Positions 53,100-64,000 of a stretch of 64,000 bases of DNA are shown one piece after another. This DNA comes from Variovorax paradoxus (GTDB lineage: Bacteria > Pseudomonadota > Gammaproteobacteria > Burkholderiales > Burkholderiaceae_C), in assembly GCF_009498455.1 (NCBI RefSeq), contig NZ_CP045644.1:3041001-3105000 (forward strand), in the 5' to 3' direction. Each line of letters begins with the position of its first letter. Within the stretch, counting starts at the first letter, position 1. Under the pieces are notes generated by a model. That model saw only the letters and a program-made list of their open reading frames with translations, did not search any database and had not been told where the DNA came from. The position numbers and the translations under genes were made by a program.

Positions 53100-53888
53100 A
53101 TGCTCGACTGGAACCCCGCGCTCTACCGTCGCTACGAGGACGAGCGCACCCGGCCCGCACAGGAACTCCTGGCGCGGGTCCCGCTTGCCGAGGCCGCCCA
53201 TGTGGTCGACCTCGGATGCGGACCGGGCAATTCCACCGAGCTGCTGGCACATCGGTTCCCCAAGGCGAAAGTCACGGGCACCGACAACTCCGAAGCCATG
53301 CTGGTCAGCGCGCGCGAGCGCCTGCCGGCGGCGCGCTTCGAGTTGAACGACATCGCGACCTGGGCGCCGCGTGAAACAGAAGCGCCCGATCTCATTTATG
53401 CCAACGCGTCCCTGCAATGGGTGCCGGATCACGAGACGCTGATCCCCCGCCTGTTCGACGCGCTGGCTCCGGGCGGCGTGCTCGCCGTCCAGATGCCCGA
53501 CAACCGGCAAGAGCCTACGCACCGCCTGATGCGGGCGGTGGCGGCCGAAGCGCCCTGGGCCGAGCCCATCGGCGACGCCGACAAGCTGCGCACCTTGCTG
53601 CTGCCGCTCGGCGGTTATTACGACCTGCTGGCCGCGCGTGCGGCCCATGTCGATGTCTGGCACACCATCTACCAGCACCCGATGGCGGACGCCGCGGCCA
53701 TCGTCGAATGGGTGCGCAGCACCGGGCTGAAGCCTTTCGTCGACCGGCTGCCGCCCGACCTGCAGGCGAGCTACCTCGCTGAATACGAACGCCGGGTCAA
53801 CGAGGCCTACCCCGTGCGCACCGACGGCAAGCGCCTGCTCGCCTTCCCGCGCATGTTCATCGTGGCGCACAAGAAAAAAGACGCATGA
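53100..53888 (+). CDS. tam: Trans-aconitate 2-methyltransferase
   Basis: This 262-residue class I methyltransferase has motif [17 protein letters not shown] and the Tam-specific [18 protein letters not shown] and YRHAL-like C-terminal pattern. In relatives Tam methylates trans-aconitate, a spontaneous inhibitor formed from the aconitase intermediate. Its location near acnB supports this role. Start and stop lie close to mdh and the CoA lyase, with an overlap of 4 bases to the latter. Confidence 0.88.
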
Positions 53889-54898
53889 CCACCCAGACCG
53901 TCGCTCATCCCGCGGACGTGCTGCTCGGCGCCCAGGCCGGCGCCGTGACCCTGCCGGTATGCGACCACTACAGCGGCGTCGAAGCCCGCATGAAGAAGAG
54001 TCTCGCGCTCCAGGCCGAGATGGCCGAGGAGTTCGGCGCCTGCGTGTTCGATGTCACCCTCGACTGCGAAGACGGCGCCCCGGTCGGCGGCGAGGCGGAG
54101 CATGCCGCGCTCGTCACCGAACTCGCGCTGGCCGCGAAGCCCGGCATGCGCGTCGGTGTGCGCGTGCACCCGGTCGATCACCCCGCATTCGCTGGCGACG
54201 TGATCACCATCGCCGGTCGTGCGGGCGATCGCCTGAGCCACCTGATGGTGCCGAAGGTCGAATCCGTGGCCGATGTGTTGCAGGCTGTTGCGGCGCTCGA
54301 CGCGGCCGATGCCGGCGCGCTGCCGCTGCACGTGCTCATCGAATCGCCGCTTGCGGTGCACAACGCCTTCGAGATCGCCGCGCATCCGCGCGTGCAGTCG
54401 CTGAGCTTCGGTCTCATGGATTTCGTGTCGGCGCATGCCGGCGCCATTCCCGCCGACGGCATGGGCGCGGCGGGGCAGTTCAGCCATCCGCTGGTCGTGC
54501 GTGCCAAGCTGGCACTGGCTTCGGCCGCGCATGCCTACGGCAAGGTGCCTTCGCATTGCGTGGTCACCGAGTTCAACGACACCGATGCAATGCGCACCGC
54601 GGCCCGCAAGGCGGCCACCGAATTCGGCTACACGCGCATGTGGAGCATCCACCCGAACCAGATCCGTCCGATCCTCGAGGCCTTCGCGCCCGACGAGGCG
54701 CAGATTCAAATTGCCACAAAAATCATTACAAAAGCCGCCGACGCGGATTGGGCACCGACACAAATTGATGGCACATTGCACGACCGCGCGAGCTACCGCC
54801 ACTTCTGGCAGGTCCTGACGCGTGCCCACGCAACAGGGCGCGCGTTGCCCTCCGAGGCGAAAGCCTGGTTTGCATCGCGGTCTCCTGAAACCCACTGA
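53885..54898 (+). CDS. HpcH/HpaI aldolase / citrate lyase family CoA ester lyase
   Basis: This 337-residue protein belongs to the CitE/malyl-CoA lyase superfamily. VFDVTLDCEDGAPVG and VLIESPLAVHNAFEIAAHPRVQSL are the metal- and substrate-binding loops. Its substrate might be malyl-CoA, citryl-CoA or a related thioester; sequence alone cannot decide. It overlaps the tam stop by 4 bases and lies in the mdh-acnB group. Confidence 0.82.
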   Translation: MTTQTVAHPADVLLGAQAGAVTLPVCDHYSGVEARMKKSLALQAEMAEEFGACVFDVTLDCEDGAPVGGEAEHAALVTELALAAKPGMRVGVRVHPVDHPAFAGDVITIAGRAGDRLSHLMVPKVESVADVLQAVAALDAADAGALPLHVLIESPLAVHNAFEIAAHPRVQSLSFGLMDFVSAHAGAIPADGMGAAGQFSHPLVVRAKLALASAAHAYGKVPSHCVVTEFNDTDAMRTAARKAATEFGYTRMWSIHPNQIRPILEAFAPDEAQIQIATKIITKAADADWAPTQIDGTLHDRASYRHFWQVLTRAHATGRALPSEAKAWFASRSPETH

Positions 54899-58251: not shown

Positions 58252-59112
58252 TCAGCCGTGCGGCGGATTGGGCTTCAGGTGCTCCTGGCCCTTCAACACC
58301 ATCGCCATGCCGGCGGGCCCGCCGACCGCGTAAGGCAGCGACGCCTGCAGCGAGTGGGCGAAGTCCCCCCGGTACAGCTTGGCGCCCTGGTGGGTCAGGT
58401 TCGAACTGGCGTCGATGTAGATCGACTCGCCCAGGCCTGACCACAGGCGACAGAAGCCGTAGTCTTCCGACAGGTAGCGCCGCGTGACCGGGTCGACCAT
58501 CACGTCGAAGAAGCGGTAGTGCAGCCCTCGGTCGGCTTCGCCGATGCTGTCGGGCACGTACTGCAGGTCGGGGTAGGCGGCCATGAGCCGTTCGAACACC
58601 TGGCGTCGGATCACCATGAAGCCTGTGGGTGCCTCGGTCATCTTCATGAAGCCGTCGGGCTGCACCTCGAGTTCGATCTGCGTCGCGCCTTCCTCGGCCT
58701 TGGCATTGACCGTGTAGCGCGTGAAGCCGGCCTCGAACTGTTGCTGCGTGGTGCCTGCGACCACGCCGTCCTCTGGCCAGTTCTCGCGCTTCAGCGGGTA
58801 GACGCCGGCGGCGATGTCGTAGCCCGACAGCAGCAGGCGAAAGGCCGCCTCGGCCGAGAACCCGATGTCGGCGTCGATCCAGAACAGGTGTGTCCACTCC
58901 GTGTTGGCCAGGAACTGGGCCACGCAGTTGTTGCGCGCGCGCGTGACCAGGCTCTCGCCCTGGTGCATCAGCACCTGCATCTTCATGCCGGCACGTTCGG
59001 CGTGGATGGTGAAGTTCAGCAGCGATGCCACGTAGTTCTGGAAGAACTTGCCGTCGTGGCTCGGCGTCACGATCACGGGATAGAAGTGCCGGAGTTCGGA
59101 CGGGTCGAGCAT
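58252..59112 (-). CDS. Anp1-like glycosyltransferase
   Basis: This 286-residue protein resembles the Anp1/Mnn9-type GT-A group. D80-A-D82 in LFWIDADIGFSAEA is a plausible DxD metal site. Other landmarks are HQGESLVTRARNNCVAQFLA and YDIAAGVYPLKRENW. It is the last gene of a minus-strand operon with the DUF2827 gene (31-base gap) and the DUF4019 gene. Acceptor unknown; surface adhesin modification is a hypothesis. Confidence 0.82.
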   Translation of the reverse strand: MLDPSELRHFYPVIVTPSHDGKFFQNYVASLLNFTIHAERAGMKMQVLMHQGESLVTRARNNCVAQFLANTEWTHLFWIDADIGFSAEAAFRLLLSGYDIAAGVYPLKRENWPEDGVVAGTTQQQFEAGFTRYTVNAKAEEGATQIELEVQPDGFMKMTEAPTGFMVIRRQVFERLMAAYPDLQYVPDSIGEADRGLHYRFFDVMVDPVTRRYLSEDYGFCRLWSGLGESIYIDASSNLTHQGAKLYRGDFAHSLQASLPYAVGGPAGMAMVLKGQEHLKPNPPHG

Positions 59113-59143
59113 GCGGGAGGGCTCCGTGTGTCTGGCTGACTAG

Positions 59144-60286
59144 CTAGCGGGCAGGGCGCTGCATCAGGCCCTGCAGCAGGGTGTCGTAAGTCTGTGTGGC
59201 CGCCGTGTCGCCGGGCAGGTACCGCGCAATGAGTGCGCGCTGCCGTTCGCGATAAGCGTCTGCCTGGACGTCGTGCCCGTCGATGGCCTCGAGCACGCGG
59301 GCGCTGCCTGCGGCCACGTCGTTCTCGGCGTAGTAGTAGCCCAGGTCCGCGCACAGGTGCGCGTTGTGGACCAGCGGATAGCCCTGCCAGCAGGTCTCGA
59401 GGTAGAAGTAGTTGAGCGGGTTCTCCCACTGGTGGGAGACCACGATGTCGGTGTTCTGCGCCAGGAACACCGGCGTTTCATGCCGGCCCAGGAAGACCGC
59501 CTTGTGCTGGCGCACCAGGTCGAGCTGGTTCATCAGCGTGATGAACTCCATGCTGTCCTTGGCCATGCGCTCCGCGTTCGTGACCTGCAGCAGCGCGACC
59601 GCGTCGGGCCGGGTGCGGTACGCCAGCTCGGCAATCAGGATCGGATAGACGCAGAACTTCACCACGTTGATGTTCGGCTCCATCACGCTGAGCCGCCGCG
59701 GGCCGCTGCGCGGCTGGTACGCGCCGCGCTCGGGCAGCGCGCGGGAGCGCTCTTCGAGGAACACCGGGCTCCAGACGAAGGGCACGGCGCGCGCCTCGGC
59801 GCGGCGCAGCACCTCGAAGTACGGCTGGCTGATGTGCGCCACCTGCGGAACCATCCAGATGTCGTCGTAGCGCTGGTTGACGAACAGGTTGCGGCCCCAC
59901 AGCGGCTTGCCGAACAGCATCGACTCCATCGCGTGCACGTACTCGAAGCCGCAGCAGTACGACACCAGCCGCGCGCCGCGGCGCTTCAGGTGCTCGGTCT
60001 GGTCGGCATCGATCTGGCCGCCCAGTTCGATCAGCACGTCCACGCTGTCCTTGGCCGCCTCGAAGGTCACGGTCGGCCAGCGGGCCTGGTCCCAGGGCAG
60101 GGCGGGGGTGATGGGAGTGGCGGTGGTGTTGACCAGCACCACGGAGGCCACGCTGGGGCAGTGTTTCAGTGCCTCCGCCAGGAACACGGCGTTCTGCTTG
60201 ATGCCGTTGTTCCAGAGCGTCTCGGCCTCGTGGTGGAGGCCGATCGTGATGCCGATGCGCAGGCCCGCACCCGAGGCGGTGGTCAT
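59144..60286 (-). CDS. DUF2827 family protein, glycosyltransferase-like
   Basis: This 380-residue protein matches the DUF2827 family, found in Burkholderiales near surface-structure genes. It looks like a GT-B-like fold: an N-terminal IGITIGLHHEAETLWNNGIKQ, central FEYVHAMESMLFGKPLW and a C-terminal SHQWENPLNYFYLETCWQGY that resembles a nucleotide-sugar site. Enzyme activity is not established. It overlaps the DUF4019 gene by 4 bases and precedes the Anp1-like gene. Confidence 0.82.
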   Translation of the reverse strand: MTTASGAGLRIGITIGLHHEAETLWNNGIKQNAVFLAEALKHCPSVASVVLVNTTATPITPALPWDQARWPTVTFEAAKDSVDVLIELGGQIDADQTEHLKRRGARLVSYCCGFEYVHAMESMLFGKPLWGRNLFVNQRYDDIWMVPQVAHISQPYFEVLRRAEARAVPFVWSPVFLEERSRALPERGAYQPRSGPRRLSVMEPNINVVKFCVYPILIAELAYRTRPDAVALLQVTNAERMAKDSMEFITLMNQLDLVRQHKAVFLGRHETPVFLAQNTDIVVSHQWENPLNYFYLETCWQGYPLVHNAHLCADLGYYYAENDVAAGSARVLEAIDGHDVQADAYRERQRALIARYLPGDTAATQTYDTLLQGLMQRPAR

Positions 60287-60723
60287 TGGTTTTCGCGCGG
60301 GACGTAGCCCGTCAGCCGCCAGCCGTCGGGTTCGAGGCGGAAGCTGACTTTTTCGAAGACGGTCTTGTCGTTGGCAAGCCGGGTGGAGAAGTCGACGTTG
60401 GCATACAGGCCGGCCGGAATGCCGGCGCTGTCGTCCGGGTTACGGATCCGCGTGATGCCGGCCCAATCACGTCGAGCAACGGTGCCCACGGTCTGACGGG
60501 CGCGTTGTGTATTGGCGACAAAGTCAGCTCGTGGGTACCGGGTCTTGATGAAAGCCGAAGCGGTGTCCCAGATTTCCCCTGCCCGGCCTTCGTCGATTTG
60601 CTTCAGGGCGGTGAGGCCCGCCTGCACGAGTTCGTCGGCGGAAGAGCCGTCCTGTGCCAGGGCGCAGGAACTGGCGAGGGCCAGCGTGCATGCGGCCAGG
60701 AAACGGGAGAGGAACGGCTTCAT
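60283..60723 (-). CDS. DUF4019 secreted protein
   Basis: This 146-residue protein has a signal peptide (about residues 1-23, ending ALAQ) and a small domain resembling DUF4019, with EIWDTASAFIK, VARRDWAGITRI and a final GWRLTGYVPREN. Function is unknown. It heads the operon with the DUF2827 protein and the glycosyltransferase, so it may act in the periplasm in the same pathway. The operon is divergent from the adhesin gene across a 317-base gap. Confidence 0.8.
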   Translation of the reverse strand: MKPFLSRFLAACTLALASSCALAQDGSSADELVQAGLTALKQIDEGRAGEIWDTASAFIKTRYPRADFVANTQRARQTVGTVARRDWAGITRIRNPDDSAGIPAGLYANVDFSTRLANDKTVFEKVSFRLEPDGWRLTGYVPRENQ

Positions 60724-61040
60724 TTTGGCAACCTTTGTGCGGAAAACCGCTGTGACAGACAGCGGCGGCGATTCTAGGCGGGGCGTTCGGATCGACGTTC
60801 CGCGCCGGGTTCGCCCGCTCCTAAATTGTCTCCAATCGTGAAATTTTGTGAACTAAATCATCATTTTCAAGTTTCCGATGCACACGAATGGCTCCAAATG
60901 TAAACGGCTGCGTACATTACCGCGTCCATTGTGAACGTCAGGGTAACTACGACCCTGGCGGGGGTGACGAACCGCGGGCGGTCGTTGCCTTCCTCCTCCG
61001 TTGATACCGCGCCCGCCTTTGTGAACCGAGCTCGAAGAAT
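60724..61040. promoter_or_regulatory. Shared divergent regulatory region
   Basis: These 317 bases separate the DUF4019 operon and the adhesin gene and must hold both promoters. The region around 60826-60890 is AT-rich compared with the rest. No clear sigma-70 hexamer pair, palindrome or riboswitch was recognised, and no additional gene is supported. Confidence 0.4.
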
Positions 61041-64000
61041 ATGAACAAGTCTTATCGAAGTATCTGGAATGAAGCCTTGGGGGCCTGGGTTGCGGCGTCT
61101 GAATTGACTTCGGCGCGAGGGAAGAAGAGCAAGTCGCGAGTGGCGACTGTGGCTGCTTTGGTGGTGGCGGAGCGGCGGCGGGGTATGGGGTGGGGCGTTG
61201 GCTCAATACGCGCTCAACGGGAGTACGGCAACAGATGAATCGATAGCTATCGGCAGCAGTAACGCCAATGGTGACCGGGCCACTGCGTCGGGCAACGGGG
61301 CTGTTGCGATAGGGCAAAACGCGAAAGCAACCGGTGGCGTTGCCATCGGCGGCAGTGCCAATGCCAATGGCACAGGGGCTGTCGCGATGGGGCAATCTGC
61401 GCTCGCCAACGGCACCCACGCCGTTGCCATCGGGCAGCAGGCCACTGCGGTCAGCGGTGGCGTCGCCCTTGGATACAACGCTCAGGCACCCCAGGACGCG
61501 GCGGTCGCGATCGGATGGGGCGCGAATGCGACCGGGTCGGCCTCGGGCATCGCCATCGGCGATCGTTCCAACGCCACGGGCACCAATGCGATTGCGATCG
61601 GCGGCAATGCTGGCGCGACGGCCACGTCGGCAAACGGCGCCGGCGCCCTTGCGGTGGGTTCTGGCGCGCAGGCTAGCGGGACGGGCGCGGTGGCGTTCGG
61701 CGGTCTGGGCGGTACCGTCGGTGGCTCCCGCGCCACCAACACGTATGCCGTTGCCATCGGCGCTGCGGCCCAGGCGACAGGCTCCGGTGCTGTCGCACTG
61801 GGTGGCGACGCCACCAGTGCCGCAGTCGCGGCCGGCACCAATTCCCTGGCTTTCGGTGCGGGCGCCACAACGAACACAGGTACGTCTGGTGCCGTAGCCA
61901 TGGGCGCCAACGCTCAGGCCACGGCTTCCGACGCGTTCGCCATGGGCACGGGGGCCAAGGCCAACGTTGCCGGCGCGATGGCATTGGGCTTGAACGCGCA
62001 GGCGATTGCGGCCAACGCGGTTGCCATCGGCGCCAATGCGATTGCCAGCACTGCCACTGCGACGTCCAGCGCGACGATCGGCTCGGTGACCTACTCGGGC
62101 TTCGCCGGCACTGCGCCCATTGGCGTGGTCAGCGTGGGCACGGCCGGTGGCGAGCGGCAGATCACCAACGTGGCGGCTGGACGGATCACGGCGACCAGCA
62201 CCGATGCAATCAACGGCAGCCAGTTGTACTCGACGCTGAGCACGACCAACAGCAGCATCGGCAGCCTGTCCACCGGCCTGAGCACCACCAACAGCAGCGT
62301 CAGCAGCCTGTCGACGTCTGCATCGTCGGGCCTGAGTACGGCCACCAGTCGCATCACCAGCCTGTCGACGTCGACGTCGTCCGGGCTGAGCACGGCCACC
62401 AGCGGCATCTCGAGCCTGTCTACGGGCCTGAGCACGACGAACAGCAATGTCAGCAGCCTCTCGACGTCCACGTCGAGCGGGTTGAGCACTGCCAACAGCA
62501 ATGTGAGCAGCCTGTCGACCTCGACGTCGTCGGGGCTGAGCACGACCAACAGCCGCGTCGACAGCCTGTCAACGTCGACGTCGTCCGGACTGAGCACGGC
62601 GACCAGCGGTATCTCAAGCCTGTCCACGAGCCTGAGCACAACGAATAGCAACCTCGGCAGCTTGTCGACGTCTACTTCGTCGGGGCTGAGCACGGCGAGC
62701 AGTCGAATCAACAGCCTGTCGACCTCGACGTCGTCCGGCCTGAGCACGGCGACCAGTGGCATCTCCAGCCTGTCTACGGGCCTGAGCACGACGAACAGCA
62801 ATGTGAGCAGCTTGTCGACCTCGATGTCGTCGGGCCTGAGCACAGCGACCAGTGGCATCTCCAGTCTGTCGACCGGGTTGAGTACCACCAACAGCAACGT
62901 CAGCAGCCTCTCGACCTCGACCTCCTCGGGCCTGAGCACGGCCGCCAGCGGTATTTCCAGTCTTTCGACCTCGACGTCGTCTGGCCTGAGCACGACCAAC
63001 AGTCGTGTCGACAGCCTCTCGACGTCCACGTCTTCTGGTTTGAGCACAGCCACCAGTGGCATCTCCAGCCTGTCGACAGGTTTGAGCACCACGAACAGCA
63101 ACGTCAGCAGCCTGTCGACGTCGACATCGTCCGGCTTGAGCACCGCAACGAGCGGCATCTCCAGCCTGTCCACGGGCCTGAGCACCACGAACAGCAACGT
63201 CAGCAGCCTGTCGACCTCGACGTCGTCGGGCCTCAGTACAGCCACCAGCGGTATCGCGAGCCTGTCCACTGGCCTGAGCACTACCAATAGCAACGTCAGC
63301 AGTCTTTCGACCTCCACCTCGAGCGGTCTGAGCACGGCCACCAGCGGCATCTCCAGCCTGTCCACGGGCCTGAGCACCACGAACAGCAATGTGGGCAGTC
63401 TGTCGACGTCCACGTCGACTGGCCTCAGCACGACCAACAGCCGCATCGACAGCCTGTCGACGTCGACGTCGAGCGGCCTGAGCACCGCCACGAGCGGTCT
63501 CTCGAGCCTGTCCACCGGCCTGAGCACAACGAACAGCAATGTCAGCAGCCTGTCGACTTCCACGTCGTCGGGTTTGAGTACGGCTACCAGCGGCATCTCC
63601 AGCTTGTCGACAGGTCTGAGCACCACGAACAGCAACGTCAGCAGCCTGTCGACCTCGACATCGTCTGGTCTGAGCACGGCGACGAGCAGCATCGACAGTC
63701 TGTCGACGTCCACTTCGAGTGGTCTGAGCACGGCGGCCAGTGGCATCTCGAGCCTGTCTACGGGTCTGAGCACGGCAAACAGCAACGTCAGCAGCCTGTC
63801 GACTTCGACGTCGTCGGGTTTGAGTACGGCTACTAGTGGTATCTCCAGCCTGTCCACCGGCCTGAGCACCACCAACAGCAACGTCGGCAGCCTGTCGACC
63901 TCAACATCGAGCGGCTTGAGTACGACCAACAGCCGCATCGATAGCCTCTCGACGTCGACGTCGTCGGGCCTGAGCACTGCCACGAGCAGCATCGACAGCC
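61041..64000 (+). CDS. Trimeric autotransporter adhesin, partial, frameshifted
   Basis: This is a YadA/Hia-type adhesin that continues past the window end. It starts with an ESPR extended signal (MNKSYRSIWNEALGAW, 61041 onward). In that frame a stop occurs at 61236. The head repeats (AVAIG-, AVAMG-type, about 61201-62090) run in the frame shifted by one base, meeting the signal between about 61164 and 61196. One extra base, possibly in a G-rich tract, would explain this. The head is followed by a neck motif (ERQITNVAAG...STDAINGSQLY, 62143-62229) and a long Ser/Thr repeat stalk from 62239. The membrane anchor is beyond the window. Confidence 0.8.
62239..64000 (+). repeat. Two-module Ser/Thr-rich stalk repeat array
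   Basis: In the head frame this region is made only of two modules: 13 copies of a 14-residue unit (like STATSGISSLSTGL) and 22 copies of an 18-residue unit (like STTNSNVSSLSTSTSSGL), 35 complete modules in total, then a partial one from 63973. Hydrophobic residues sit at 7, 10 and 14 in the first, and 7, 10 and 18 in the second, compatible with a trimeric coiled coil. Ser plus Thr make up 8 of 14 and 12 of 18 residues. Codons vary between copies while residues stay the same. Confidence 0.9.

Follow-up and report, generated by a model that had tools for sequence, protein, structure and literature searches.

DUF2827 proteins with a predicted glycosyltransferase fold accompany Ser/Thr-rich trimeric autotransporters in Variovorax paradoxus and its relatives

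What do DUF2827 proteins, a family of no known function, do beside a giant surface adhesin? The question is raised by a 64,000-nucleotide stretch of Variovorax paradoxus DNA, here called the window (C1:3041001-3105000), from a genome that is one contig of 7,288,087 bases. At its right-hand end a compact minus-strand unit encodes a DUF4019 protein, a DUF2827 protein and a glycosyltransferase (GT)-like protein. A preliminary description of the window had called this unit a tight operon diverging from the adhesin and, from layout, had proposed that it modifies the adhesin stalk. The open reading frame (ORF) coordinates agree exactly with that arrangement. The DUF4019 and DUF2827 genes overlap by 4 bases (60283-60286), a gap of 31 bases separates DUF2827 from the GT-like gene (59113-59143), and the YadA-type adhesin lies divergently on the plus strand. 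The proposed link now rests on more than layout, namely on an adhesin signal at 69 of 80 loci, on presence and absence over 399 genomes, and on a GT-B fold model. From sequence and modelled structure, we propose that DUF2827 proteins are probably transferases dedicated to O-glycosylating Ser/Thr-rich adhesin stalks, with a probability of roughly 0.8. This gives the family a function that can be tested, and the association suggests an unrecognised system that coats giant adhesins with sugars.

The adhesin ORF has 4,363 codons (L004:3199-16290, equal to C1:3102198-3115289), extends past the window end and is 55% Ser+Thr as a whole. Its stalk was said to be more than half Ser/Thr, and indeed 62% of its 3,672 residues are Ser or Thr, arranged with a 50-residue periodicity and SLST repeats. 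Pfam matches to YadA_stalk, YadA_head and YadA_anchor lie in the C-terminal part, with the anchor at the C-terminal end, so that head, stalk and anchor of a trimeric autotransporter are all present. Among the four YadA-anchored frames of this genome, the sole Ser/Thr-rich one is the adhesin linked to DUF2827. Another two DUF2827 genes come straight after it, so that the family stands on both sides of the adhesin. These copies, B and C, are on the adhesin's strand beyond the window (C1:3115385-3116536 and 3116533-3117696) and overlap each other by 4 bases. PF10933 (DUF2827) scores 486.6, 406.2 and 458.5 bits for the three V. paradoxus copies (cut-off 25). The family consists of three old paralogue clades, A, B and C, which recur beside trimeric autotransporters across many betaproteobacterial genera. 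The best named relatives are from Variovorax: a V. boronicumulans record and Variovorax sp. Root473 each have a DUF2827 that is 96% identical.

To what extent does the pairing hold outside V. paradoxus? DUF2827 neighbourhoods were surveyed for trimeric autotransporters at the best 80 of 120 relatives (the named loci), which were scanned with profiles of our own and with repeat counts. An adhesin signal is present in the fetched flank of 69 of the 80, within 1.5 kb of a DUF2827 gene in 65 of those 69 and within 0.5 kb in 46. Significance figures for these counts make no correction for relatedness. Our own profile 'ANCH' drifted into the stalk repeats on iteration; the count of 69 therefore uses it as an adhesin signal together with simple repeat counts, and PF03895 was used for anchors proper. 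A Pfam YadA_anchor search took 48 of 60 chosen loci, without L083 and L110, and so covered 45 genomes, all of which carry both DUF2827 and YadA_anchor, with exactly three DUF2827 genes in 32. The anchor lies within about 12 kb of DUF2827 on the same contig in at least 30 of the 45. Three genomes have none there, G431 (judged from its twin G017), G454 and G458 (adhesin cut by the contig end), and the matches listed give no verdict for the other 12. By our own rough estimate, with some five anchors per 7 Mb, a place chosen at random would be this near to an anchor about 2% of the time. Gene order is typically adhesin-B-C with A on the opposite side in Variovorax, adhesin-B-C-x-A in Paraburkholderia, and B-C-A-adhesin in Caballeronia. 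Two genomes carry a single copy behind an autotransporter. In G021 a PATR-repeat autotransporter of type Va is followed after about 40 bp by a clade B gene (L041:6672-11425). In G799 a distance of 123 bp separates the copy from the trimeric adhesin in front of it, which has repeats of 46% Ser+Thr and no SLST.

Co-occurrence was determined in 399 evenly sampled Burkholderiales genomes with a 200-residue stalk probe, scoring at most 8 candidates per genome, a depth at which weak or rare matches can go unseen. DUF2827 is above cut-off in 7 genomes; in an eighth, G335, it falls below. The probe matched at E<=1e-3 in 18 genomes, comprising all 7 with DUF2827 and 11 others. In 5 of the 7 the match is at E <= 1.6e-15, far above the remainder, and the best match without DUF2827, in G113, is 1.9e-6 (27.5 bits, 31% identity). 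A sample of 398 Pseudomonadota, again with at most 8 candidates per genome, holds six DUF2827 genomes, five of them common to the Burkholderiales sample; five of the six have a stalk match (the sixth is G799), and nine other genomes have weak ones, the best at 28.4 bits. Of 15 genomes probed one by one for the stalk, 12 have a match, the exceptions being G021, G022 and G799.

We measured Ser+Thr in all 75 YadA-anchored frames of 41 genomes (V. paradoxus and 40 relatives), taking about 50% over 150 residues as the level. Of 8 frames beside DUF2827, 5 reach it, and two of the remaining three are stubs at contig ends. Away from DUF2827 but in genomes that carry it, 6 of 44 frames do so, against 0 of 23 in genomes that lack it, where the maximum is 35%. 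At the named loci, 53 of the 69 with an adhesin signal attain 50% over 150 residues. Ser/Thr richness thus accompanies DUF2827, exceptions included.

These patterns bear on the strongest alternative, that DUF2827 proteins make some other surface glycan, for instance a modification of lipopolysaccharide (LPS) or exopolysaccharide, which the adhesin needs or binds while remaining unmodified itself. GT4-like folds are frequent in LPS and polysaccharide synthesis, and such enzymes are among the fold matches of DUF2827. In Hydromonas, moreover, three DUF2827 genes lie amid GT34, GT2-like and methyltransferase genes (L130:5554-15824), in what looks like a larger glycan cluster and not by an adhesin. 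We nevertheless find this explanation rather unlikely, since the association tracks a Ser/Thr-rich stalk even where the genes are apart, numerous trimeric adhesins occur without DUF2827, and the single copies of G021 and G799 lie directly behind an autotransporter.

Several observations weigh against dedicated stalk glycosylation. The preliminary description had held that DUF2827 genes without a nearby adhesin would speak against the link. Such loci exist, with no adhesin in the fetched flank of 11 of the 80, but a strong stalk match (best E <= 1.9e-17) is present in 7 of 7 genomes probed. These are three Collimonas, Hydromonas, a Paraburkholderia MAG (metagenome-assembled genome), Variovorax J22G73 and Comamonas; L055, L083, L123 and L111 were left out, and in the L111 genome the remaining DUF2827 clusters have anchors next to them. 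In six of the seven the listed matches lie far from DUF2827 or on other contigs; that of Comamonas, whose locus L104 starts at a contig end, has no listed place. G031 resembles Collimonas, with no anchor adjacent to DUF2827 and three Ser/Thr-rich adhesins elsewhere in the genome. Some linked adhesins are poor in Ser/Thr: 16 of the 69 signal-bearing loci stay below 50%, some of them contig-end stubs, and the adhesin of G022 peaks at 36%. The stalk matches of G137 (E 1.9e-5) and G304 (E 1.4e-4) are no better than background, although both are on the same contig as DUF2827, a few kb away. YadA_anchor occurs in 23 of the 41 genomes versus DUF2827 in 11, and trimeric adhesins in general do not need DUF2827. 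By sequence, no known GT family matches DUF2827, and its profile against PDB sequences recovered no GT at E<=10, only noise. Activity, glycan and substrate are predictions from sequence and model, and a shared fold by itself shows no function. Linkage plus fold can mislead, because BimC, which adjoins BimA, is reported, in the accessible part of the source, without the expected transferase activity.

Is DUF2827 an enzyme at all? The structural model (pLDDT 91.8) has two Rossmann-like domains in a GT-B arrangement. Fold comparison was the VIA second look and covers only the families listed there. No GT4 family was matched by sequence, PF10933 being the sole Pfam match (with an E limit of 0.01 for copy A and of 1 for B and C), and an NCBIfam search gave nothing useful. 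Conservation is strong in a putative donor-site region, with N292, Y293, E/D297, H307 and N308 in 44 of 44 sequences and K210 in 43. By eye there is no signal peptide, which points to a cytoplasmic location. The proteins might also be non-catalytic helpers with a GT fold, such as chaperones that keep hold of the stalk until it is exported, a part that BimC may play for BimA. The reported inactivity of BimC, a BAHT-family protein, would fit such a role (as far as the available text of that report goes), as would the GT4 acidic position, which is E in 22 and D in 22 of the 44 sequences. An inactive helper would not need such conservation in the putative donor site, and we therefore regard this explanation as improbable.

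The nearest precedents come from autotransporter heptosyltransferases. TibC and AAH, of the BAHT family, act with the autotransporters TibA and AIDA-I, and several passenger Ser residues are modified, according to the accessible part of the report (PMC4358343). On that account a dedicated transferase beside an autotransporter is the shared feature, and a difference is the four-Cys iron finger of TibC, for which DUF2827 lacks the conserved Cys residues. DUF2827 also differs from TibC/AAH in usually comprising three paralogues and in its usual partner, a trimeric autotransporter with SLST repeats. Membership of DUF2827 in BAHT is rejected, its most conserved Cys columns reaching 25, 23, 22 and 18 of 44. 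BimC, again BAHT and thus of another family than DUF2827, is likewise a GT-family protein encoded next to an adhesin-type autotransporter, BimA of Burkholderia; the available text reports it without the expected activity (PMC6439308). SdgA/SdgB of Staphylococcus aureus (structure 7vfm) also counts among the nearest known systems. Our best reading, by analogy, is that the DUF2827 system would work like TibC-TibA by a different enzyme family, usually as a trio.

For the adhesins themselves, SLST repeats have been described in the Burkholderia trimeric adhesin BMA1027 (PMC4021183), and putative O-glycosylation of Ser/Thr-rich repeats has been suggested for BCAM2418 (PMC7142374). Both are of the same kind as the V. 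paradoxus SLST adhesin, and the accessible parts of these papers name no enzyme for them. DUF2827 may supply candidate enzymes for the O-glycosylation so far suggested there for SLST adhesins such as BCAM2418. On a B. cenocepacia replicon an adhesin frame (2,744 codons, 94 SLST motifs) precedes three DUF2827 genes of the same strand, and there is a fourth copy nearby. In the literature searched, a single paper mentions DUF2827: it describes a database, and one of its tables lists the family under 'Uronic acid pathway'. Papers pairing trimeric autotransporters with glycosyltransferases included none that names DUF2827 by its listing, most subscription papers being outside the search, and a search on Snodgrassella adhesins gave no paper naming the organism.

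How would the system operate? GT-B-fold DUF2827 enzymes would act in the cytoplasm on the Ser/Thr-rich stalk before export, transferring O-linked sugars from a donor to many of the Ser/Thr residues, which number about 2,300 per stalk chain. Paralogues A, B and C, which usually occur together, would act on the same adhesin; in the simplest scheme one enzyme initiates and the others extend. Clade B is our best guess for the initiating enzyme, because B usually adjoins the adhesin and the single DUF2827 behind the type Va autotransporter belongs to clade B. The GT-like protein and DUF4019 would be accessories. The type Va neighbour in G021 further suggests that the family may serve other type V adhesins. 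More tentatively, and at slightly less than even odds, A, B and C could make up a three-step cytoplasmic pathway, with an oligosaccharide assembled at thousands of Ser/Thr in every trimer. The stalks would become mucin-like rods and so match, in Gram-negative bacteria, the Ser-rich repeat glycoproteins. Other type V adhesins would have recruited the family too, namely the type Va protein of G021 and the G799 adhesin with its non-SLST Ser repeats. If stalk glycosylation by DUF2827 is true, studies on unmodified recombinant adhesin pieces would miss a sugar coat, and a Ser/Thr transferase set for simple repeats would be open to study.

The pair also travels on plasmids. On conjugative B. ambifaria plasmids a 'YadA-like family protein' and an 'OmpA family protein' are followed by DUF2827 genes, either three or two of them, and a B. 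glumae plasmid has a similar adhesin-OmpA-DUF2827 order. This module is on Burkholderia plasmids L210, L211 and L212, two of them typed as conjugative, with recombinase genes near in all three. Shared ancestry or joint transfer on a mobile island, with no functional tie, could draw on these conjugative copies with recombinase genes near and on the patchiness of the locus within the genus (11 of 41 genomes), but it is very improbable given that co-occurrence persists with the genes far apart, the pair persists while gene orders vary between genera, and three old clades are retained together.

The exact operon of the window is less conserved than its DUF2827 component. The preliminary description had treated DUF4019, DUF2827 and GT together as the adhesin's partner; the DUF2827 set is conserved, and the whole operon is not, the GT-like gene being present in 18 of the 80 named loci, all labelled Variovorax. 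The 'Anp1-like' label given to its product has to be dropped, as no Pfam family matches it at E<=0.01 or even at E<=1. The protein matches phrog_1574 (E 3.7e-35; function not assigned there), the glycosyltransferase matches found besides are all weak, and a comparison with PDB sequences yielded nothing above noise. Homologues at E<=0.001 number 1,035, one of the 120 listed being named Collimonas, and D80 and D82 are invariant in 30 aligned relatives. Its model is poor (pLDDT 53), the structural neighbours listed being mostly GT-A enzymes. DUF4019 (PF13211, cut-off 26.5) is present in 25 of 129 scanned loci, some overlapping. Both genes look accessory.

Table 1. Features at the right-hand end of the window (window positions)
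Feature	Position	Strand	Basis
GT-A-like protein ('Anp1-like' of the preliminary description), 286 aa, looks accessory	58252..59112	-	ORF list
DUF2827 copy A, predicted GT-B glycosyltransferase, 380 aa	59144..60286	-	PF10933
DUF4019 protein, 146 aa, signal-peptide-like N-terminus by eye	60283..60723	-	PF13211, 74.6 bits
Divergent intergenic region, operon / adhesin	60724..61040	.	promoter-like sites
Signal-peptide start of the adhesin (MNKSYRSIWNEALGAW...), open for 65 codons, frame differs from that of the passenger	61041..61238	+	
Trimeric autotransporter passenger frame, continuing to C1:3115289 (4,363-codon ORF)	61108..64000	+	YadA_head, YadA_stalk; YadA_anchor beyond window
SLST stalk, first part, Ser/Thr-rich	62221..64000	+	composition, 50-residue periodicity

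The start of the V. paradoxus adhesin is irregular. The frame opening at 61041 (MNKSYRSIWNEALGAW...) closes after 65 codons and the passenger lies in another frame, whose nearest upstream stop is 61105-61107; the signal peptide is thus not in frame with the passenger, as it is in relatives. The fetched loci contain 43 distinct starts of this type, and in all but that of the window the frame remains open over 242 codons or more, often up to the contig or locus end. The out-of-frame start could stem from faulty assembly, gene decay or a switch. In Variovorax Root473 (L044, L054) the linked adhesin is broken up into several frames; misassembled repeats or decay could be the reason. The intergenic region has two minus-strand promoter-like sites (60870-60843 and 60852-60825) versus 0.2 expected in shuffles, both being consensus matches only. 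Comamonas L104 lies near the same type of flanking gene as window positions 53885-54898 (CoA ester lyase-like, by eye), and the chromosomal site may therefore be old in the family. Finally, a small gene follows copy C (L004:18709-19308). Its product has no Pfam or NCBIfam match and looks secreted by eye, with a signal-peptide-like start, and the gene recurs in 35 of 129 scanned loci.

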